In this document: positions 6,171 through 16,663 of the stretch, one piece after another | How the letters are laid out: every line of letters begins with the position of its first letter | How positions within the stretch are numbered: the stretch's first letter is position 1 | Notes under the pieces: generated by a model | Seen by the model: the letters and a program-made list of their open reading frames with translations, nothing else | What the model was told of the DNA's origin: nothing | Database searches by the model: none | Translations under genes and position numbers: made by a program | Source: a virus | Virus record (IMG/VR): IMGVR_UViG_3300027754_000483 | Coordinates: 1 to 22,121 of that record | Strand: one strand, 5' to 3' | Length of the DNA stretch: 22,121 nucleotides

Positions 6171-7543
6171 AACTTAAATCCCTCAAATGATTTTTTAGGT
6201 TTCTTTTCTTCATTATCATACTCCTTTTCTTTACCAGAGTCAAGTATATCATTTTGAGCATCTTGCTCTACATCATAAAGTCTCATCTTACTTCTATCAA
6301 TACCAACAACAAATCTTTTATATATTGTTAAATCATTATATCGGTTCTTAAGTTGTTTGACCAGAATTTGCCCGAGACCTTCAAGTTCTTCTGTGCTAAT
6401 AAGGGCAAACATAAGGTCAGCAGTAGCAGGAAGACCAAAGGATTCAGAAGTATCAGTAAGTTCAACATCAGAACTCCCATAACCACTACGAGTAGTCTGA
6501 GTAGCGGAAACAATTGGAACATTTGCCTCAACTGCGAGTCCTCGTAATTCTTCAGCAATTGATTTAACCAGTGTGTATGAGTTGATATTACTTCCACCCT
6601 TAAATCGTGAAGAAGCACAGATATTAAGATAGTCAATAAAAATAATATCGGGTTTAAATGATTTCTTAAGTGCAAGTTCATTTAACAGTGATTTAAAATG
6701 ATTTGAGTGTGCTGATGCTGTTGGATATTCTTTAATTATAAGTGTTCCCTGTGTCTTTTTAGCAATACTATTAACTTTTGATTCAAACATTGATTTTGGC
6801 AATTCAGTCAGTTGTTGAATAGGAATGTTTAAGAGATTTGCATCAATTCTCTCAGCAATACGTTCCTCTGCCATTTCAAGAGTGATGTAGAGAACGTTGC
6901 GGCCTTGCAATAAGACGGAAGCAGCAACATGGCACATAAAGAGACTTTTTCCGACACCTGTACCAGCAAGAGCGATATTGAGAGTCTTATTAGGCAAACC
7001 ACCTTTGGTAATTTTATTGAAGTAATCAAGGTCAAATTCAATTTTTTCCTCCTTTCTGTGATAAGACTCATAACGTTTCTCAAAGTCTAACAGATAATCG
7101 TGTCCAACGTGAGTATCAAAAGATACTGCGAGAGCATCTGATAAAATTGTAGGTATACTATCTCTGTTTTTCTTGCCGTCTTTATCATCTGCAATGTGTA
7201 TTGATTCCATCAGTGCAAGGTAGATTGCTCTATCTCTACACCATTTTTCAGTTGTATCAACTAACCAGTCAAACTCTGTAGGAACATCATCAAGGCACTC
7301 AATAAGATGTATGATTTGTTTAAAAGAATCCTCATTAATATCTTTACGTTTTTCCACTTCAATACAGAGAACTTCTTTCGTTGCAAGTTGATTATATTGT
7401 GTAACAAAATTGAATATTTCTTCAAAAACTATTTTTTGATTAGAGTCTTCAAAATAATCAGATTTAACAAATGGAATAACTTTTCTTGTATATTTCTCAT
7501 TATATAAAAAGTTTCTCAAAATTAGAAATTCAACTTTATCCAT
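6167..7543 (-). CDS. 41: Replicative DNA helicase gp41 (DnaB-like)
   Basis: The hexameric helicase that unwinds DNA ahead of the T4-type fork and supports primase. Residues 194-200 are Walker A (GTGVGKS) and 301-307 the Walker B strand (IFIDYLN). A downstream segment, VPIVSATQTTRSGYGSSD, carries the Gln-containing DnaB-family motif. The length of 458 aa is close to T4 gp41 (475). The N-terminal region is DnaB-N-like, and the C-terminus ends in a Lys/Glu-rich tail with a final SFEGFKF, possibly a partner-binding peptide. The start ATG 7543 overlaps the hydroxylase-like stop by 8 bases. Confidence 0.95.
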   Translation of the reverse strand: MDKVEFLILRNFLYNEKYTRKVIPFVKSDYFEDSNQKIVFEEIFNFVTQYNQLATKEVLCIEVEKRKDINEDSFKQIIHLIECLDDVPTEFDWLVDTTEKWCRDRAIYLALMESIHIADDKDGKKNRDSIPTILSDALAVSFDTHVGHDYLLDFEKRYESYHRKEEKIEFDLDYFNKITKGGLPNKTLNIALAGTGVGKSLFMCHVAASVLLQGRNVLYITLEMAEERIAERIDANLLNIPIQQLTELPKSMFESKVNSIAKKTQGTLIIKEYPTASAHSNHFKSLLNELALKKSFKPDIIFIDYLNICASSRFKGGSNINSYTLVKSIAEELRGLAVEANVPIVSATQTTRSGYGSSDVELTDTSESFGLPATADLMFALISTEELEGLGQILVKQLKNRYNDLTIYKRFVVGIDRSKMRLYDVEQDAQNDILDSGKEKEYDNEEKKPKKSFEGFKF

Positions 7544-8138
7544 TGTCTATTTTGTGATGTGGGTTATTTTTATGGTGTGGCATATCAAAAACAAATGCAA
7601 TTCTAACATTATCTCCAATATTTACAGAAGAATGTTCAAGTTTATTATTAAACCAAAAAAAAGTTCCTGGTTCTATAATTACATTTTCATCATCTACAGT
7701 ATAACAATATCTTCCCTGAATTGATATATGATATCTATCTTTAGTTAAATAATAATTCCCAAAGTCAACATGTTTTCCAACTTTACCACCTATCGGTATT
7801 CCCAAAAAACCACACCTTTTAAGTTTATCAAATTTTTTAAATCTTTTTTTAATTAAATTTAAAATTTCTGTATGTTTCTCATATGCAGGAGTTTTAATGC
7901 AAATTTCCGTATCGCCAACATATTCATCTTTTTTGTTTATTCCCCCTATTATTAATTGCAGTACGTCAGCAGTTACGGTGTATTTTGTGGGATCAAGTTG
8001 TTGAGTCTTTTCTATTTTTTTTTGAGACCCCCAATCATCAACATTTTTTTGCAGTTGTTTTAAAACTCCAGAAACATCTATACCAGTTTCAATTATTTTT
8101 ATTTTTTTAGATTTATAAGTATTATTTACCAGATCCAT
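7536..8138 (-). CDS. Aspartyl/asparaginyl beta-hydroxylase-like 2-oxoglutarate oxygenase
   Basis: The 200-aa protein has a double-stranded beta-helix with the iron triad HVD (H123, D125) and a distal His (H169, in KLEHSSVN). Arg179 (NVRIAFVFD) follows 10 residues later and is the expected 2-oxoglutarate ligand. This arrangement is typical of the Asp/Asn hydroxylase (PF05118-like) group, which hydroxylates protein side chains or related substrates. The tail is His-rich (MPHHKNNPHHK). ATG 8138 is preferred over an in-frame TTG at 8159 because GTGAG sits 7 bases before it. It overlaps uvsX by 17 bases and gp41 by 8. Its codons look more A/T-rich than its neighbours. The substrate is unknown. Confidence 0.75.
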   Translation of the reverse strand: MDLVNNTYKSKKIKIIETGIDVSGVLKQLQKNVDDWGSQKKIEKTQQLDPTKYTVTADVLQLIIGGINKKDEYVGDTEICIKTPAYEKHTEILNLIKKRFKKFDKLKRCGFLGIPIGGKVGKHVDFGNYYLTKDRYHISIQGRYCYTVDDENVIIEPGTFFWFNNKLEHSSVNIGDNVRIAFVFDMPHHKNNPHHKIDNG

Positions 8139-9129
8139 AACTAAACTCACTTTTAGCAATCACATCAAGTTTTTCCATTACTTCTAGATTAAAATACTTT
8201 TCAGGATCTTTTAGTATGTCCTTACCATAGATTTTTTTACCATCCATTTCATATCTTCCTGCGACATTTTTCCACATTCCACCAATCTCACCAAGCTCAA
8301 GTAATCCATAATACTTATCAAGTCCACGTTCATCATAAAATAACCGAATTTCAACTTGCTTATTTTCTTTACTTAATCTTGATTTTTGTGTTTTGGCACG
8401 AATAATATTTCCTATAACTTCTGTTCCATCTTTTTCTTTTGACTTTGATAAGTATACGATTGTAGATGATGCATATTGCAATCCAGATCCACCTGACATT
8501 TGCTTACCACCATAAAGACTCATACTTTCATATGTGTGATTGGTGACTATCATAGGAATATTTGCCTGACCCAACTTAAGAGTCAACATTCTAAAAGCAC
8601 CCTTAATCAGTTGTGCCTTAGTCATATCACGAGTATCTTTCTCGGCAAGTGTATCTGTGATTTCTTTATTAGTAGAGAGCATACCCAAAGAGTCAAGTAC
8701 AAACATACAAGGACTCCTTTCACTCTTTGTCTTTTTTAGATACATATCAACTGCCTTCAGAGTCTTATTACGGAAATCTTCAATCGTGACTACATTGACA
8801 ACCACCAGGCGAGTTGTGTCAATTCCCCTACCTTCCAAAAGGGACTTTGTGATTGCTGCTTCAGTATCAAAATACAAACAGTATCCAGTAGGATTATTAT
8901 CAAGGAAATTTTTAACGACGGCAAGACTGAAGAAAGTTTTTCCAGTAGAAGTTTCCCCTGCGATTGCAGTAATCTTGTTCCCAGAAACACCACCAAAGAT
9001 GCTACCAGATACAAGAGCGTTAAAAATGTAGCTGCCAGTATCCACATACGTTTCAGTTTCGTCAATCTCTGATGCCAGTTGTGTGTATTCTCCACCAATT
9101 TCTTTTACAATTTCTTTTAAGAAATCCAT
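8122..9129 (-). CDS. uvsX: RecA-like recombinase UvsX
   Basis: Forms filaments on single-stranded DNA and drives strand exchange and recombination-dependent replication. Walker A is GETSTGKT (58-65). The Walker B strand is CMFVLDSLGML, and the region MIVTNHTYES is followed by the mobile-loop segment QMSGGSGLQYASS. The length of 335 aa is typical of cyanophage UvsX, shorter than T4 (391). The start is ATG 9129 with GGAG further upstream, just after the 46-aa microprotein stop. The C-terminus overlaps the hydroxylase-like gene. Confidence 0.95.
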   Translation of the reverse strand: MDFLKEIVKEIGGEYTQLASEIDETETYVDTGSYIFNALVSGSIFGGVSGNKITAIAGETSTGKTFFSLAVVKNFLDNNPTGYCLYFDTEAAITKSLLEGRGIDTTRLVVVNVVTIEDFRNKTLKAVDMYLKKTKSERSPCMFVLDSLGMLSTNKEITDTLAEKDTRDMTKAQLIKGAFRMLTLKLGQANIPMIVTNHTYESMSLYGGKQMSGGSGLQYASSTIVYLSKSKEKDGTEVIGNIIRAKTQKSRLSKENKQVEIRLFYDERGLDKYYGLLELGEIGGMWKNVAGRYEMDGKKIYGKDILKDPEKYFNLEVMEKLDVIAKSEFSYGSGK

Positions 9130-9273: not shown

Positions 9274-9437
9274 TATGCAACCACTCCGTATTTTTCTCTT
9301 AGAATTTTTTTGTAAGGTAGTCCTTGGTCTTTAAGTTCTTTTATTAATTTCAGTCTATGGTATAATGATGCATCACCTCCAAGACTCATTGCTTTAATAA
9401 TCGTATTCAGTTCTTCGTCTGTAATCGGTAAATCCAT
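9273..9437 (-). CDS. Microprotein directly after DNA polymerase (54 aa)
   Basis: A 54-residue frame, MDLPITDEELNTIIKAMSLG to LREKYGVVA, predicted as short helices with an acidic start and basic end. Its ATG overlaps the gp43 stop (TAATG), so it is probably translated by reinitiation after the polymerase. DEELNTII and YKKILREKYG look like a small helical DNA- or protein-binding unit, but I recognise no family. Same-strand coupling on both sides supports expression. Confidence 0.65.
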   Translation of the reverse strand: MDLPITDEELNTIIKAMSLGGDASLYHRLKLIKELKDQGLPYKKILREKYGVVA

Positions 9438-11938
9438 TAGGTAAAAAATGACTCCAAATTAGAAGTGTATTCAGTTTTCCATCCAATCACATCAAGAATT
9501 GATTTCAAAGGATCTAAAAATGCTTTTTCAAATTGTAATTCATAGTCAATGTATTTGTCAAGTTTAAGTTCTTTTGGAAACTCTGAGATAAATGAGATTA
9601 CATTTTCGTGAATTATATTTGGTTTTTTGAGGTAGATAAATTTAATCTTTTCTCCATTTTTTATAATAGAATACTTATTTGAAAGTTTATTTTGTTTTAT
9701 ATAGTGATTATAAAGTAGTGCCCCACGAACATGAATTGGAGTTCCTTTTGAGTAGATTGAACTTGATGAATAATATTTTTCAACATCAGACACTGACCTT
9801 GGAAATGAAAGTTCTTCTGGGGAAAGACTTTTAAACTCCTGGCGAGCATTTTCAATAAACTCAATTACCTCATCTTCAGTTCCATTCATCATTAATTTAA
9901 GAGCACTCTTAATCATCTTACGGCAAGGAGCAGGAGTTGATGACTTAACTGCCTCAATACCCATTATCTTGAGTTTAGGTTCTTCATAACGAACACCCTC
10001 AACATCCCAGGCATTTAGAATATATCTCTTTTTAGCAGTCCAAATACCACGATCAGCAATAGTTTCTCTTTTCATTTGCATTTTTTGATCGTAGGCATTT
10101 ACATATTCTGCCAGTTCTTGGTAAGAATTTTCAATATACTTTTCAAGTTCCACCGAACAGATCTTATCAAGGAACGAAATAATGCCTTCAGAAGTTTTCT
10201 CTCTTCCCTTGTATATCTTGTCAACCAAAGGACCCATATGAAGGTAGATACTATCAGTATCAGAAGCAATAACATAATCAACTTCATCTGTCTTAAGAAG
10301 TTTATTTAGATACAAATTCATCTTATTTTCAATCCAACGAATCGCAACTTGTCCTGATGTTGTGATTGCCTCAGCATTTGCTAACTTATAATAACGAAAA
10401 TATTCATTACCTACGGCTCCATAAGCAGAGTTCAAAGAAATCTTTTTTGCCATTTGTATGTTATTACAACGAGCAATTTCTTTCTCTAATTTTTTAGTTG
10501 GAGTTTTTTCATATTGTTTCTTTGCCTCAAGCATCTTCTTTTTGTAAATAACTCTTTCGTTATACATTTTTTCCATTAATTCTGGAAGAAATCCACGAAC
10601 GTCTTTACGATACATTGCTCCATTAGGACATACCGCATAATCTTTATAATCAGAAAAATCAAGTTGCTTACTTAAAATATTATCTACTGATACTGTAGGA
10701 TGCTTTTCATCTAATAAAGTTTCTGGTGAAATATTATAACCCATTATCAAGTGAGGATATAGACTATTCAAGTCAAAACTTACAACATAATCATACATTC
10801 CTGGTTTTGGTTCTTTTACATATGCTCCAGCAAACTTTCCATTCTTTACAGAACTATCTTTTTGTGGGATAACAATATTTCTTTTCTTTAAGTAATTGTA
10901 AATAATTGCATCCCAAGTTCTTACTTGATAAAATATATCACCATAGTTTACTTTCGCATCATATGCCATCGTAAGAATAAGTTCGATCAGTTTCATCTTG
11001 TCTTCTAAACGATCAACAAGTTCTACGTCAACAATATTATATTCAATAAACTTTTGCCAACCGTGAGTATAAAACTCTTTAAAAGTATCAAATTCAGAGT
11101 GATCTAATTTTTTCTGCCCAAGTTCTACTTCTGCAATATAGTCCAGACGATATGACTCTTGTGCCTTATATGTAAACTTCTTATACAAGTCCATATAATC
11201 AAGTTGAGTGATTCCACCAACATCAAAGACTGTATGTTTACGTCCTGTGAGATATATTTCTCCTTCAGTCACCAACCCCCAGTTAGAAAAACGTTTCATC
11301 AGTTTTTCACCAAGAACACGATCTAAACGTTTGCAAATATAAGGAATATCGTATAGTTGAATATTCCATCCTGTAATCACATCAGGAACATCAATCATCC
11401 AATGATGAATAAAAGAATTAAGAAGTTCATATTCACTTGGACAATAATGATAAGTTACATCACTCCGATTATTTACAAATGGTTTTACCCCCCAGGTTAT
11501 TATTTTTTTAGTATTGTAATCTTGAACACTAATCGCAAGAATTTCTTCAGTACAAGACTCTACATCAGGAAATCCCTCTTCTGACGATACTTCAATATCA
11601 AGAGTAACAAGTTTGATTTGACTGATATCAAATTTAATCTCATCATCTGGATAGTTTTCTGAAATATATTGATAGACATACCTGTCCTGGCCATATATTT
11701 CAAACCCTTCAATATCTTTATACTTATTAAAAAACTCTCTACAATCTCTTACTGTTCCTGGTTGAATTGATTCAACATTTTCACCATTTAAAGTTTTATA
11801 TTTTGACTGTTTTTTTGTTGGAATAAAAAGAGTTGGAGAAAAATCTCTTCTTGTTTCATATCTTTTACCATCCTCTACTCCACGAATCAAAAATTGATTG
11901 CCAATCAATTGAACATTTGTATAAAAATTTGAAGACAT
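9437..11938 (-). CDS. 43: Family B DNA polymerase gp43
   Basis: Replicative polymerase with proofreading. Exonuclease motifs are DIEVSSEEG (about 114), GWNIQLYD (about 190) and YNIVDVELVD (about 300). Polymerase motif A is DLNSLYP (about 389), motif B KKISLNSAYG (about 498) and motif C SDTDSIY (about 559), followed by KKRYILNAWD. The C-terminus NLESFFT resembles the peptide by which T4 gp43 docks on the clamp gp45. ATG 11938 (833 aa, one base after the upstream TAA) is preferred to an in-frame TTG at 11947. The length is slightly below T4 (898). No intein or split is seen. Confidence 0.97.
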   Translation of the reverse strand: MSSNFYTNVQLIGNQFLIRGVEDGKRYETRRDFSPTLFIPTKKQSKYKTLNGENVESIQPGTVRDCREFFNKYKDIEGFEIYGQDRYVYQYISENYPDDEIKFDISQIKLVTLDIEVSSEEGFPDVESCTEEILAISVQDYNTKKIITWGVKPFVNNRSDVTYHYCPSEYELLNSFIHHWMIDVPDVITGWNIQLYDIPYICKRLDRVLGEKLMKRFSNWGLVTEGEIYLTGRKHTVFDVGGITQLDYMDLYKKFTYKAQESYRLDYIAEVELGQKKLDHSEFDTFKEFYTHGWQKFIEYNIVDVELVDRLEDKMKLIELILTMAYDAKVNYGDIFYQVRTWDAIIYNYLKKRNIVIPQKDSSVKNGKFAGAYVKEPKPGMYDYVVSFDLNSLYPHLIMGYNISPETLLDEKHPTVSVDNILSKQLDFSDYKDYAVCPNGAMYRKDVRGFLPELMEKMYNERVIYKKKMLEAKKQYEKTPTKKLEKEIARCNNIQMAKKISLNSAYGAVGNEYFRYYKLANAEAITTSGQVAIRWIENKMNLYLNKLLKTDEVDYVIASDTDSIYLHMGPLVDKIYKGREKTSEGIISFLDKICSVELEKYIENSYQELAEYVNAYDQKMQMKRETIADRGIWTAKKRYILNAWDVEGVRYEEPKLKIMGIEAVKSSTPAPCRKMIKSALKLMMNGTEDEVIEFIENARQEFKSLSPEELSFPRSVSDVEKYYSSSSIYSKGTPIHVRGALLYNHYIKQNKLSNKYSIIKNGEKIKFIYLKKPNIIHENVISFISEFPKELKLDKYIDYELQFEKAFLDPLKSILDVIGWKTEYTSNLESFFT

Positions 11939-11939
11939 T

Positions 11940-12188
11940 TTACTCAATTAGTTTTTCATATTTTTTTAAGATTAAATTAACTGGATCAATAATAGTTAAT
12001 ACCTTATCAGAGTGAATCATAAAACTATTCTGTGATGTATAATCTAACATCCAAGGGGTTAATGTCATATCAGAATTCACTACAAATGGTTCTATTAATC
12101 TGCAGTCTGGTTCTCCCAGTTCAGAACCAACTTCCTCAATCTGACTTATCAGAATTTCCTTGTTCAGAAGAACTAGAATCTTTATCAT
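11940..12188 (-). CDS. Sm-like small protein upstream of gp43 (82 aa)
   Basis: The protein begins MIKILVLLNKEILISQIEEV and continues with LIEPFVV, LTPWMLDY and KVLTIIDPVNLILKKYEKL. The same order of elements occurs in the next gene upstream (12136-12519), so the two look like diverged paralogues. The beta-barrel pattern resembles the Sm-like protein of presumed cyanophage origin whose structure has been solved; that link is from memory. Sm/Hfq-type folds usually bind RNA. ATG 12188 is chosen because GGAAAG lies 4-5 bases upstream, while the earlier ATG at 12200 has no clear ribosome site. It overlaps the upstream gene by 53 bases and ends one base before gp43. Confidence 0.7.
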   Translation of the reverse strand: MIKILVLLNKEILISQIEEVGSELGEPDCRLIEPFVVNSDMTLTPWMLDYTSQNSFMIHSDKVLTIIDPVNLILKKYEKLIE

Positions 12189-12519
12189 TTTTCTTTCCAT
12201 AGTTTACAATGTCTTCAATATACATTTGTTTGAGTTTATCTACTGGTTCAACCATAGTGATTAACCAGTCAGAAGGAACAGGTATTTTTTCCTCTTTAGA
12301 CAAAGGTATCCAGGGGAAAAGAGATACCTCAAATCCTGCTTTTTTCATTCCTTGAGTTTCATTTTCTGTTAGAAGATTTGGATTTCTCATTTTAACAACA
12401 CAAGGTTTATCCAAGTAATATCCAATAACTCTTTGATTTTCTTCTTCACCAACACACATTTCATTTACGTCTGCGATGATATCTTCGCCAGACTTAAGAA
12501 GCATCAGTTTAATCGTCAT
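12136..12519 (-). CDS. Sm-like small protein with an acidic/Ser tail (127 aa)
   Basis: The protein begins MTIKLMLLKSGEDIIADVNE, continues with YYLDKPCVVKM and SLFPWIPLSKEEKIPV, and ends its fold with WLITMVEPVDKLKQMY. A Ser/Asp/Lys tail (about 108-127) follows. The LKSGEDIIADV opening and the PW and VEPVDKL elements mark a small beta-barrel family resembling Sm-like cyanophage proteins. RNA binding would suit a gene placed just ahead of the polymerase, but that is inference. ATG 12519 is chosen because GGGAGA is just upstream; the longer TTG frame from 12570 would start inside the promoter-terminator element. Confidence 0.7.
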   Translation of the reverse strand: MTIKLMLLKSGEDIIADVNEMCVGEEENQRVIGYYLDKPCVVKMRNPNLLTENETQGMKKAGFEVSLFPWIPLSKEEKIPVPSDWLITMVEPVDKLKQMYIEDIVNYGKKNDKDSSSSEQGNSDKSD

Positions 12520-12623: not shown

Positions 12624-13058
12624 TTATAGATAATCTTTTCTCTTATGTGATTCTGGAACGATTCTTCCCAAAATTACTGTAAGTAATCCGTCTTCAAAAT
12701 TTACAGAAGAGACTTCTGTATCATCAGCAAGAGTCCAAGTTCTAGTAAAACTTCTTTGTGCTAAACCTTTATGTAAATAATTTGTCTCAGTTTCTTTATC
12801 TTCTTTTTGTCCTTCAATAAAAAGTTTTCCATCTTGTGTATAAACAAGTACTTCTTTTTTAGAAAATCCAGCAAGTGCGAGTTCTAAACGTGACTCTACA
12901 TTACTGATTTGAACTAGATTATATGGTGGATAATTTGAAGTTGTTTCGTGAAGGTTAAATAGACGATCAAAATATTCGTCCATTCCAATACTATTACGAG
13001 TAATCCTATCCATCAGGGCAGGAAGATCGGCAGATGTGTACCTAGAAAGATTAGTCAT
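12624..13058 (-). CDS. hsp20: Small heat-shock protein Hsp20
   Basis: A 144-aa alpha-crystallin-type chaperone, a characteristic gene of cyanomyoviruses in this position. The N-terminal arm (MDEYFDRLFNLHE) leads into the beta-sandwich (about 44-125). It contains YNLVQISNVESRLELALAGF, DGKLFIEGQKED, SFTRTWTLADDTE and NFEDGLLTVIL, the last being the family's GxL-type motif. A short basic C-terminus follows. It probably protects nascent or host proteins during infection. The ribosome site TAAGGAG lies 5 bases before the ATG, the best in the window. It has its own promoter (13117-13125) and a terminator on each side, so it forms a single-gene cassette. Confidence 0.92.
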   Translation of the reverse strand: MTNLSRYTSADLPALMDRITRNSIGMDEYFDRLFNLHETTSNYPPYNLVQISNVESRLELALAGFSKKEVLVYTQDGKLFIEGQKEDKETETNYLHKGLAQRSFTRTWTLADDTEVSSVNFEDGLLTVILGRIVPESHKRKDYL

Positions 13059-13165: not shown

Positions 13166-13603
13166 TTATTCGGTTTCTGCTGCTTTCACTTTCTTACCAA
13201 TATTATATTTCTGTTCTAAAATCCATTCTTCTTTATCTTTATATGCCAAAACTTTGATTTGATTAAGTGGGGCAATATCAACAACTTCATCTGGATTTAC
13301 AACAGATAATAGTCCCCAATCTAAAAGAAGACGAACAATACGATTACGTCTTTGAACATCGTTTAAAGTTAGATTGGCGTGTTTACCATCCAGAGCAAAT
13401 AACTCTTTAAAGTGGACAATATAATATCTACCTTGCTTATGTAGAATGTGACAAGATTGGTAAAGTTTTTTTTCTTTACGTGATGCTACTCCGATACGTG
13501 TCAAAGTCTCACGAACTTTAAGAAAATCATCTGGTTCATTTAATAGAACCTCAATCATCATACTTGGTGTCCACTGTACTTGTGGTTCTACCGTGATAGT
13601 CAT
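13166..13603 (-). CDS. regA: Translational repressor RegA
   Basis: RegA binds the start region of early mRNAs, including those of the clamp and clamp-loader genes in T4, and blocks ribosome entry. From residue 16 the sequence follows T4 RegA closely: IEVLLNEPDDFLKVRETLTR, LYQSCHILHKQGRYYIVHFK and NRIVRLLLDWGL. The protein is 145 aa against 122 in T4, because of about 15 extra N-terminal residues plus a slightly longer tail. GGAGG lies close before ATG 13603, which supports the long form; the internal ATG pair at residues 15-16 has no comparable site. The start overlaps the gp62 stop by ATGA. Confidence 0.95.
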   Translation of the reverse strand: MTITVEPQVQWTPSMMIEVLLNEPDDFLKVRETLTRIGVASRKEKKLYQSCHILHKQGRYYIVHFKELFALDGKHANLTLNDVQRRNRIVRLLLDWGLLSVVNPDEVVDIAPLNQIKVLAYKDKEEWILEQKYNIGKKVKAAETE

Positions 13604-13971
13604 CGTCTTCCTCCAGTATCAAGTCGCTGTTTAATAAAAATAATCTGATCTTTTGATAAGATTTTTAAAACTTGTAATGCTTTTTCATTACTATATCCAT
13701 AGTATTTCTTAATACATTCCAAATCTTCAATTTTATCCTTATAAACCCAGGGAGAAAATCTCCTCTGTTTTCTAATAGTATTTAGATAAAATGTATATTG
13801 CATATCTTTATCTAAAGAGTGATTAAGATTTATTTCGTTTGCATACAATATGCAATCAACATATGCAGATAAACAACGATTGATAATAAAGGGTGGATAT
13901 GATTTAATATCCTCTGACAAATCCTTTTTATTATCATTAATTGAGTTCAACCAATCTTTAAGTTCAGTCAT
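13600..13971 (-). CDS. 62: Clamp loader small subunit gp62
   Basis: Small subunit of the gp44/gp62 complex that loads the gp45 clamp. It is 123 aa, shorter than T4 gp62 (187), as usual for cyanophages. Diagnostic segments are MTELKDWLNSIN, YPPFIINRCLS, NTIRKQRRFSPWVYK and YYGYSNEKALQVLKILS. ATGA overlaps at both ends couple it to the DruA-like gene and to regA. In T4 it follows gene 44 directly; here a foreign gene intervenes. Confidence 0.93.
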   Translation of the reverse strand: MTELKDWLNSINDNKKDLSEDIKSYPPFIINRCLSAYVDCILYANEINLNHSLDKDMQYTFYLNTIRKQRRFSPWVYKDKIEDLECIKKYYGYSNEKALQVLKILSKDQIIFIKQRLDTGGRR

Positions 13972-15083
13972 CTTATAATTTGTATGTCATCATCTTCTGT
14001 CCAGAGTTCGACCTTAGTTCTGAATCTACCTTCTTGTTTAAGTTTTTCATATCGTTTAGTTGCTTTCTTTTTCCACCAGGAAATAATATTTTCCAATTCA
14101 AACTTATCCCAATTAGGGCCACGAACAAGTTGTTCTTCTTCACCAAGAAGAACCTGACGTACATTTTGATACCCATATTCAGAAGTATAAAACCTTTTCT
14201 TTTGTGTCAACTCAAATGCATTACCGATTACAGAATTAAATTCTGAAAGTTTTTCTTGGTCCTGAAGAGAATTTTTAATAATTGATATCATTTTAGTTTG
14301 CCTCTTCATTTTTTTAGATGATGCCTTATTATCCGTAAGAGGGGTATTATTATTTAAAAGAGTAAACCTATTATGTAATTTATGAAAAATATCATCATGC
14401 AGTAAGGGAAGAAATTTACTCTCTGTTAAACCTTTATATCGCATAAATGGTTTAAGACCATCATATTGAGAAGAATCAGTAGTAGACCCATAAAGAGAAG
14501 TTGTTTCAAATAAAGCAATGTCTTTCTCAAAAACTTCATTTAGTTTTTCACGAGCAAAATGAGAACAACAGAGAAGTGCAAGAAGTTTTCCACCAAGATA
14601 ATTATACCCAAAAGGTTGTGAAGGTACAATCACAAATCCCATTACTGCATGTCGATTGAATATTCTTAGGTCTGGTTGCTTTCCTAACCAGACATTTCTT
14701 GGTTTTGAATTGATAGTTGGAGAACCAAAACGAATAAACCCAACTACTTTTTGAGTTTTTTTTTCAAATATCATCCAACGAAGTTCTCTTCCTGGAATAT
14801 TAGATTCGTTATTATGAGAAGAAACTGCTTTTAATAAGTTTACATAATAATCTTGCGGAAGTGAATTTTGAAATCTACTTCCAATAAACTTAATGTCAAA
14901 CTCCATATCATTAGGACTAATATCTTCATTAAAAAATTCGTCTTGAAGTGAAACAATTTGATTTGACTGTAAAATTACTTCTTTTTTTACATATCTCAAA
15001 TAATCCTCAATAGAAGTAAAATTTACATAATACTTAATAAATTCATCTGCTGCCCAAACTGCATCTTGTTCAGAAACAATCAT
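13968..15083 (-). CDS. DruA/DUF4338-like protein between clamp-loader genes (371 aa)
   Basis: The central part (about 98-220) follows the layout I associate with DUF4338 (DruA-type) proteins. GRELRWMIFEKK and GFIRFGSPTIN come first, then RNVWLGK (RD-x-WIGW position) and AVMGFVIVPSQP (RFLILP position). NYLGGKLLALLCC, ALFETTSLYGST (LLETFV position), MRYKGLT and KFLPLL follow. The C-terminal third is basic. The biochemical role of that family is not settled; DruA belongs to the Druantia anti-phage system. ATG 15083 is chosen over GTG 15095 because it makes an ATGA overlap with gp44. It is also ATGA-coupled to gp62. The family assignment is by eye and unconfirmed. Confidence 0.75.
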   Translation of the reverse strand: MIVSEQDAVWAADEFIKYYVNFTSIEDYLRYVKKEVILQSNQIVSLQDEFFNEDISPNDMEFDIKFIGSRFQNSLPQDYYVNLLKAVSSHNNESNIPGRELRWMIFEKKTQKVVGFIRFGSPTINSKPRNVWLGKQPDLRIFNRHAVMGFVIVPSQPFGYNYLGGKLLALLCCSHFAREKLNEVFEKDIALFETTSLYGSTTDSSQYDGLKPFMRYKGLTESKFLPLLHDDIFHKLHNRFTLLNNNTPLTDNKASSKKMKRQTKMISIIKNSLQDQEKLSEFNSVIGNAFELTQKKRFYTSEYGYQNVRQVLLGEEEQLVRGPNWDKFELENIISWWKKKATKRYEKLKQEGRFRTKVELWTEDDDIQIIR

Positions 15084-16024
15084 TTGAAAGAGCACTCACA
15101 CATTATTTCAGTCAGACAAGCAAGAAGGTTAATCTCTTGGTCTGCTACAAAAGCCGATTGGTATTGATATTTCGCAATAATAAGAACAGAAGAAGCAATA
15201 CTGGGACCATCCAAATGTTCATATAAAGCATCATACACCATACGAAGAACACTACTGGCATCATTATCAAGGTTTGACATAACCCATTTACGAACTTCCG
15301 GAAAGTTCTTTTCTTTGAGGTATTTAAGGAGATCATTAAGTTTAACATTAGAAAATGACGCAAGAATTGCAGAATCAATTGTTCCAGAAACAGAATACCT
15401 TTGGCATTCGTTCAAAACTCTTCTGAAATCGGGAAAGTGCTTATTTACAAGTTGGGCAAGAACTTTATCATCTGCCTCAACTTTCTCTTGATCCAAGATC
15501 TTTTTGAGCCTTTCAAAGAACTTTGAGGCAAGTTTTGGTTTGTCTTTGGTCTTGATCCCAAAATCAACAACGGCACATCTGGAATGGAGTGGTTCGATGA
15601 TTTTGTTTTTGTAGTTGCAGGTGAAGATGAATCGGCAGTTGCCACTAAACTCCTCAATAGATGCCCGTAGGAGGAGTTGAACATCGCTGGTTGTATTATC
15701 TGCTTCATCAATAATGATGACTTTGTGTTTAGCAGTTGATGAAAGTGAAACGGTCGAAGCGAAGTTCTTTGCATTATTTCTGATAGTGTCGAGGAATCTA
15801 CCCTCATCGGATCCGTTGATGACATAAAAATCTACTCCAAGTTCATTACATAATGCTTTAGCAACTGTTGTCTTACCAATTCCAGGAGGTCCAGAAAGCA
15901 ACAGGTTTGAAATCTCTCCTCTATCTACAAAGTCCTGAAATGTTTTTTTAATACCTTCAGGTAGTATACATTCTTCAATTGTTTTTGGAGCATATTTTTC
16001 TACCCACAAAAATTCATTTCTCAT
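15080..16024 (-). CDS. 44: Clamp loader large subunit gp44 (AAA+ ATPase)
   Basis: ATPase subunit that opens and closes the gp45 clamp on primer-template DNA. Walker A is GPPGIGKT (45-52), Walker B IIIDEAD (103-109), sensor 1 FIFTCNYKNK (132-141) and the arginine-finger motif HSRC (147-150). The length of 314 aa matches T4 gp44 (319). The stop overlaps the next gene by ATGA. The start ATG 16024 lies 7 bases after the 40-aa microprotein stop. Confidence 0.96.
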   Translation of the reverse strand: MRNEFLWVEKYAPKTIEECILPEGIKKTFQDFVDRGEISNLLLSGPPGIGKTTVAKALCNELGVDFYVINGSDEGRFLDTIRNNAKNFASTVSLSSTAKHKVIIIDEADNTTSDVQLLLRASIEEFSGNCRFIFTCNYKNKIIEPLHSRCAVVDFGIKTKDKPKLASKFFERLKKILDQEKVEADDKVLAQLVNKHFPDFRRVLNECQRYSVSGTIDSAILASFSNVKLNDLLKYLKEKNFPEVRKWVMSNLDNDASSVLRMVYDALYEHLDGPSIASSVLIIAKYQYQSAFVADQEINLLACLTEIMCECSFK

Positions 16025-16031
16025 AATCTAT

Positions 16032-16154
16032 TTAAATCCAATTAGGTTTTTTCAATTTACAACTTGGGACAATTTCCCACCATTCTTCCCCATCAAACAC
16101 ATACAACTTGTGTGTATCTTTGTCGAGAAAAAAGTCACCTTTTTCATAGGTCAT
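16032..16154 (-). CDS. Microprotein upstream of gp44 (40 aa)
   Basis: The frame MTYEKGDFFLDKDTHKLYVF, then DGEEWWEIVP and a final CKLKKPNWI, starts at an ATGA overlap with the stop of the glycosylase-like gene and ends 7 bases before gp44. The GD-F-DxxTxxLYVFDGEEW pattern looks like a small beta-hairpin or SH3-like unit as seen in phage fibre and accessory proteins. The function is unknown. Exact coupling and gap filling support it as real. Confidence 0.6.
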   Translation of the reverse strand: MTYEKGDFFLDKDTHKLYVFDGEEWWEIVPSCKLKKPNWI

Positions 16155-16663
16155 ACCCATTCTGGTCGGCGTTGTGGCATACGAAGATAATTAGATGCAA
16201 CCCAAGGTTTGGATGCAATGTACATCTTGTAAGCAGTAAAAGTATCAATCGTATCATCATATTTCCATTCTTCGGGCATAGCACGAGCAAATGGAGTCAC
16301 TTCTTTAATCTTACCTTTTGGAAACAAATAGTATGCTTGCAGTAAGGTATTATAGCAGGAGTGAGTTTTATTATATCGTAAAGTATATTCATCACACAAG
16401 TTCATTCCCCACTTGATTAACCAATAGGCATTATCAATAGATTGTGCTGCCCATAAAGTACAAGGGTGATTACGGAAGGCACCCTTCTCTGTTTTGTAGG
16501 GGGTTCCATCGGTCTTAGGGAGAGTTCCATAGTTGTGTCCCCACTTATTTGATGCCACGATGGAGAGCATTTGACATGCCTCTAAGGGCATTTTAATTAC
16601 GTGTTTGTCTGGAAGTGTAATAGCACTCTCAGCAGGAAATGGAGATGTAACAAAGATGTTCAT
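16151..16663 (-). CDS. Conserved cyanophage protein, possible pyrimidine-dimer DNA glycosylase-like (170 aa)
   Basis: The protein starts MNIFVTSPFPAESAITLPDK, then KMPLEACQMLS, RNHPCTLWAAQSIDNAYWLI with CDEYTLRYNK, and VTPFARAMPEEWK. This conserved pattern recurs in cyanophage genomes, sometimes labelled as pyrimidine-dimer glycosylase. Direct likeness to T4 DenV is weak to the eye, so the enzyme name is tentative. Conserved His, Cys, Trp and Arg residues (NHPC, LWAAQS) suggest an active enzyme or nucleic-acid binder. It lies between gp45, whose stop it overlaps by ATGA, and the 40-aa microprotein. DNA repair at the fork would suit a phage of sunlit water. Confidence 0.75.
   Translation of the reverse strand: MNIFVTSPFPAESAITLPDKHVIKMPLEACQMLSIVASNKWGHNYGTLPKTDGTPYKTEKGAFRNHPCTLWAAQSIDNAYWLIKWGMNLCDEYTLRYNKTHSCYNTLLQAYYLFPKGKIKEVTPFARAMPEEWKYDDTIDTFTAYKMYIASKPWVASNYLRMPQRRPEWV

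Follow-up and report, generated by a model that had tools for sequence, protein, structure and literature searches.

Two overlapping, diverged Sm-like genes directly before the DNA polymerase gene of marine T4-like cyanophages: kinship, origin and a candidate role

Directly before the DNA polymerase gene of a virus of cyanomyovirus type lie two small overlapping genes, and the question raised by this locus is to which family they belong, how the pair arose and what its products may do. The stretch of DNA analysed as a whole (the window, 22,121 nt) was a 22-kb viral record with a gene order of the cyanomyovirus type (Table 1). An earlier note had described here two tandem diverged Sm-like ORFs with products of 82 and 127 aa, which were indeed present, both on the minus strand. 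Their placement directly before the polymerase gene was confirmed, with the gp43 ATG (11938) one base past the gene 2 stop. The overlap of 53 bases was correct when counted from the ATG at 12188. If gene 2 started from the in-frame upstream ATG at 12200, its product would have 86 aa and the overlap would reach 65 nt; a start a few codons 5' of the domain was common in close gene 2 homologues, matching this option. The location of the pair beside regA and gp43 held for gp43, which is adjacent, but not for regA, which is near and yet not adjacent because hsp20 separates it from the pair. The same order, with hsp20 upstream of the pair, was found in relatives.

Table 1. Positions of the features of the window and of the related loci discussed in the text
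Feature	Position	Strand	Remarks
gp43 DNA polymerase	9437..11938	-	ATG 1 nt after gene 2 stop (TAAAATG)
Sm-like gene 2 (T4-GC177 / phrog_483 type)	11940..12188	-	82 aa
Sm-like gene 1 (T4-GC176 / phrog_431 type)	12136..12519	-	127 aa
Gene 1, Sm domain	residues 1-105
Gene 1, Asp/Ser-rich disordered tail	residues 106-127
Gene 1/gene 2 overlap	12136..12188	-	53 nt; 65 nt (to 12200) with upstream start
hsp20 small heat shock protein	12624..13058	-	Pfam HSP20 E 3e-14; upstream neighbour of the pair
regA translational repressor	13166..13603	-	Pfam Translat_reg E 2.5e-44; next upstream after hsp20
375-aa ORF	13968-15095	-	between gp62 and gp44
ORF beside gp44	16151-16663	-
ORF two genes downstream of gp43	7536-8159	-
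Pelagiphage-type 3BY7 relative	L037:2995-3309		3BY7 groups with Pelagibacter T4-like phages
T4-GC139	L048:1872-2285; L049:2214-2633		third Sm-like paralogue (P-SSM2, Syn33)
T4-GC530 of P-HM2	L005:4410-4874		154 aa

Three other ORFs of the window gave matches of their own. The 375-aa ORF matched Pfam DruA (E 3e-11) and, weakly, PADLOC DruA. Its relatives were found in 31 phage records, several listed ones adjoining clamp-loader genes, under the annotations hypothetical, 'putative cytoplasmic protein' and 'methylcarbamoylase mom'; the ORF is probably a resident phage gene and not a Druantia system. The ORF beside gp44 matched a pyrimidine dimer DNA glycosylase (Pyr_excise, E 5.5e-15) and that two genes downstream of gp43 an Asp/Arg beta-hydroxylase/cupin (E 1e-6).

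The sequence elements said to be common to both products of the pair (hereafter 176 for gene 1 and 177 for gene 2) were all found: IKILVLL/IKLMLLK, PFVV/PCVV, TPWM/FPWI and IDPV/VEPV. The two proteins have strongly diverged (about 25% identity) and pairwise BLASTP of one product against the other gave no significant signal, so their kinship rests on profiles. When a profile of 65 sequences was compared with one of 82, the whole domain aligned with 98% probability and an E value of 7e-14, and the Smith–Waterman score of 53 was higher than in any of 2000 shuffles (mean 27, sd 5). Both proteins passed the curated cut-off of 27 bits for Pfam DUF6561 (PF20198), gene 2 with 110.2 bits (E 5e-32) and gene 1 with 32.2 bits (E 1.1e-7), and their best PHROG matches were phrog_431 for gene 1 (E 8e-33) and phrog_483 for gene 2 (E 9e-26). 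The papers searched made no mention of DUF6561, and PADLOC reported no defence match to either gene of the pair.

Single-chain models were predicted with AlphaFold2, the input alignments holding 65 and 82 homologues. The gene 2 model reached a mean pLDDT of 92 and the gene 1 model of 82, the latter being poor only at an insert loop and in the tail (about 45-50). In both predicted models the strand order of the five-stranded bent Sm barrel was present. The best solved match of each was 3BY7, an Sm-like protein taken from marine metagenome data and described in its deposition as resembling Sm/LSm in structure, with VIA-align Z 13.9 and rmsd 1.3 over 77 aligned residues for gene 2 and Z 13.6 and rmsd 0.9 over 81 residues for gene 1. 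The next natural proteins were eukaryotic and archaeal Sm/LSm chains (LSm, SmAP) at Z of about 6-7. A Z of about 7 would be weak by itself, but 3BY7 bridges the gap. The matches listed included no Hfq, and no argument against a kinship with Hfq was drawn from this. Sequence comparison also linked the pair to 3BY7 (E 4e-8 and 1e-9), so that the Sm-like identity proposed earlier, and the relation to a solved 'cyanophage' Sm-like protein, were borne out by sequence and by folds predicted with good confidence. The two predicted folds shared their best match, 3BY7, and both resembled Sm/LSm proteins; folds unrelated to one another or to Sm barrels would have refuted the proposal. Genes 1 and 2 are thus almost certainly members of a DUF6561/3BY7-like phage Sm family with an Sm fold.

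The suggestion that the two genes arose by tandem duplication was supported, because they formed one tree group and are adjacent, in addition to their profile kinship. In a tree of only 93 columns, some deep and basal forks of which were unresolved, 176 and 177 grouped together (98/98), apart from two further Sm-like subfamilies of the same genomes; 177 formed a clade (100/98) and a few deep 176 copies (P-HM2, S-SSM5) were placed on the 177 side. The window pair occupies the slot between regA and gp43, where a single relative was found in Pelagibacter phage Mosig as well as in all 80 pelagiphage-type loci. The cyanophage line probably began with one ancestral gene in this slot, as Pelagibacter T4-like phages still have, and gained the second by tandem duplication; the copies would then have diverged, stayed together and been translated in series with gp43.

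The pelagiphage-type single-copy subfamily was also the closest to 3BY7 (E 1.5e-36, against the values given above for the cyanophage pair), and in the tree 3BY7 joined this group (91/87). In a 2008 study, marine contigs were seen to carry a homologue of 3BY7 together with rimK, and regA flanked rimK (PMC2530865); in Mosig the order is regA, a RimK ATP-grasp protein and the 3BY7 relative. On the strength of the E values, the tree, these contigs and the Mosig order, 3BY7, described as of cyanophage origin, more likely stems from a pelagiphage-type virus.

In S-PM2, P-SSM2, Bellamy, S-SM2, P-TIM68, S-SSM7 and others the pair was found before gp43 as the hypothetical proteins T4-GC176 and T4-GC177. 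It was present in every cyanophage of a 21-genome panel except Synechococcus phage B23, which has 177 and lacks 176, and P-HM2 has two 176 copies. In P-HM2 the unrelated gene T4-GC530 sits between 176 and 177 copies. Environmental loci (150) were collected with three queries, of which the S-PM2 177 query gave two loci only, and the order 176, 177, gp43 prevailed among them. In untruncated IMG/VR loci from two queries the order 176, 177, gp43 was fixed, with exceptions at contig ends and through an extra gene copy. The 177 stop and the gp43 start overlapped by 4 nt in 69 of 144 loci and by 1 nt in 53 (together 122). A scan of genome contigs for a cellular origin gave two MAG contigs only, probably binned phage DNA. 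The pair is real, conserved and ordinary for marine T4-like cyanophages, and it is its function that we infer. With few exceptions, T4-like cyanophages, which rank among the most abundant viruses of the sea, carry both genes, and the records examined label them hypothetical or DUF6561; now that their fold, family, solved relative and duplication history are in hand, the function of the pair becomes testable.

Further Sm-like members were detected in the same genomes. A third, T4-GC139 (phrog_471), annotated as 'methylamine utilization', was present in 20 of 20 panel cyanophages and lay between the uvsW helicase and late sigma factor gp55 genes in the two examined (P-SSM2, Syn33). The P-SSM2 copy scored above the Pfam Sm_like (PF16243) cut-off and pelagiphage Mosig gave a weaker phrog_471 match; the 'methylamine utilization' label looks wrong. 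A fourth member, phrog_527 (T4-GC712 in Syn33), was located between gp44 and dam in Syn33.

The long overlap had been expected to constrain both sequences strongly. Its length, measured from a common domain position in a sample weighted toward close relatives of the window, was 44-56 nt in 80 of 148 loci; a second group of loci had an overlap of about 8 nt and some had none. The relative frame was the same in 128 of 137 loci. Within the overlap, the codons of the gene 1 tail run across beta strand 1 of gene 2; this section of gene 1 encodes a disordered tail outside the Sm domain, composed to 85% of D, E, S, T, N, Q, K, G and P. The hydrophobic strand 1 codons of 177, whose second base is T, turn into Asp, Ser or Asn codons in the gene 1 frame, and the mean hydropathy in the overlap was 1.37 for strand 1 of 177 versus -1.98 in the gene 1 frame. 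Third-position variation of 177 was 0.525 inside and 0.505 outside the overlap, and second positions were equally conserved (0.21 and 0.20, respectively). These values, and the many relatives with an overlap of about 8 nt or none, do not agree with a strong constraint on both genes. The overlap is one-sided and imposes no detectable extra constraint on 177. Because 177 positions vary alike inside and outside it, the overlap costs little and mainly records 177 as the constrained frame.

All homologues of both proteins (147 and 149) were acidic, with pI of 4.05-5.54, whereas pelagiphage-type relatives were near neutral (median pI 6.6) and the window's own regA and gp62 had pI of 8.6 and 8.9. In a simple pattern search, in which a motif could lie anywhere in the chain, the Sm1 D-x-hydrophobic-N (loop 3) and Sm2 R/K-G (loop 5) signatures were found in just 3/147 and 2/147 homologues of 177 and in just 4/82 and 0/82 of 176. 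Hfq Y-K-H was found in 0/147, 0/82 and 0/79 homologues, neither window protein carried any of the Sm/Hfq signatures, and a Pfam search at E<=1 reported no LSM or Hfq model for either. Loop 5 carries Asp instead (S-D-K in 177, x-D-W in 176), and 177 has GEPDC, with invariant P and C, in loop 3. In Sm rings loops 3 and 5 face the pore, so with such loops the pore would be acidic.

A small closed ring would be formed through strand pairing by each protein, or by both jointly, as in the 3BY7-type pentamer of TIP60. Ring formation by 176 and 177 is suggested by their relatives: the 3BY7 PDB entry has five chains and the TIP60 cage uses an LSm protein in pentameric form (PMC10374429). The acidic tail of 176 would be a flexible arm of the ring. 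The ring itself would bind proteins, acting as a scaffold or adaptor of the machinery for replication and late expression that is encoded in the same gene block (gp43, clamp, clamp loader). A protein scaffold or adaptor appears the most likely role because both proteins are strongly acidic and have lost RNA-contact residues, and a scaffold made together with gp43 is favoured by the short stop–start overlaps of 177 and gp43. The gene neighbourhood can, however, reflect transcription timing rather than a common function, and a local basic patch or RNA contact via other residues can be compatible with an acidic overall charge. The whole explanation, namely a duplicated sister pair with the Sm fold, forming a ring and acting as a protein scaffold rather than an RNA chaperone, is preferred here tentatively, its probability approaching but not reaching an even one.

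The composition of such a ring allows two alternatives. It is quite possible that 176 and 177 each form a homo-ring of their own and serve different clients, in which case their tandem order would only reflect their origin. This would fit their strong divergence, the different conserved loop residues (GEPDC/SDK in 177, xDW and the tail in 176), the presence of two more paralogues which stand alone elsewhere in the genome and the occurrence of 177 only in B23, but the co-occurrence and adjacency of 176 and 177 are near-fixed despite great sequence divergence. An obligate mixed ring, with both proteins in one ring and neither ring-forming alone, seems rather unlikely. The sister genes are adjacent and nearly always found together, they overlap and their translation is probably coupled, and eukaryotic Sm/LSm rings are likewise made of paralogues. 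On the other hand, B23 has 177 without 176, P-HM2 has 176 in two copies, the further paralogues stand singly and strict alternation of two subunits is impossible in a five-fold ring such as that of the known relative. A partial distance correlation of 0.30 between 176 and 177, left after removing gp43 and hsp20, also seemed to point to a mixed ring; 176 nevertheless correlated more with gp43 (0.60) than with 177, so this correlation can be explained by linkage. Such mirror-tree correlations were rejected as evidence for a mixed ring, since gp43 linkage gave equal or larger partial correlations.

The earlier proposal of an Hfq-like RNA regulator did not prove to be the best reading, because the proteins are acidic and lack the canonical RNA-contact motifs. 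Such a ring would bind phage or host RNA, replace the Hfq absent from most Prochlorococcus and act with RegA on early/middle transcripts. In its favour are the predicted Sm fold, the nearby regA and the finding that 10 of 12 Prochlorococcus strains lack hfq (PMC2518516), so that a phage protein could take its place, and RNA binding could be ancestral because the pelagiphage-type relatives are near neutral; given the uniform acidity, the missing Sm1/Sm2 and YKH signatures and LSM/Hfq Pfam matches, the Asp of loop 5 and the retention of the pair by Synechococcus phages though other sequenced cyanobacteria have hfq (PMC2518516), it is improbable.

The protein-scaffold reading can be taken further. 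Marine T4-like cyanophages would then have three to four phage-specific Sm-like members, with the sister pair forming a mixed, acidic, RNA-free ring that is co-translated with DNA polymerase and acts as a replisome/late-transcription adaptor. This version is speculative and improbable; if true, it would present a virus using an Sm ring as a protein scaffold without the usual RNA chemistry.

Among known systems, the window pair agrees with DUF6561, PHROGs 483/431 and T4-GC177/T4-GC176 in membership and in order before gp43; these records give no function, and the Sm fold and the 3BY7 link were drawn in this analysis. Pfam Sm_like and T4-GC139 belong to the same superfamily through cross-matching PHROG profiles, but T4-GC139 forms a separate clade and sits in the uvsW–gp55 interval. 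With 3BY7 and TIP60 the pair shares the fold, and both window models and 3BY7 align from strand 1 to the C-terminal helix; the 3BY7 subfamily, however, is single-copy and near neutral, whereas the window pair is acidic and tandem, one member having a disordered tail. The predicted Sm barrel is shared with Sm/LSm/SmAP and Hfq rings, from which the pair differs in its acidity and in the lack of RNA-contact motifs and of an N-terminal helix. Canonical Sm/LSm proteins have this helix before strand 1, whereas both window models start at a strand and their helix is C-terminal. A host precedent for the proposed role is the cyanobacterial Hfq, an Sm protein devoid of the residues for RNA binding: it has lost this activity and acts on proteins, working with PilB (PMC10989914).
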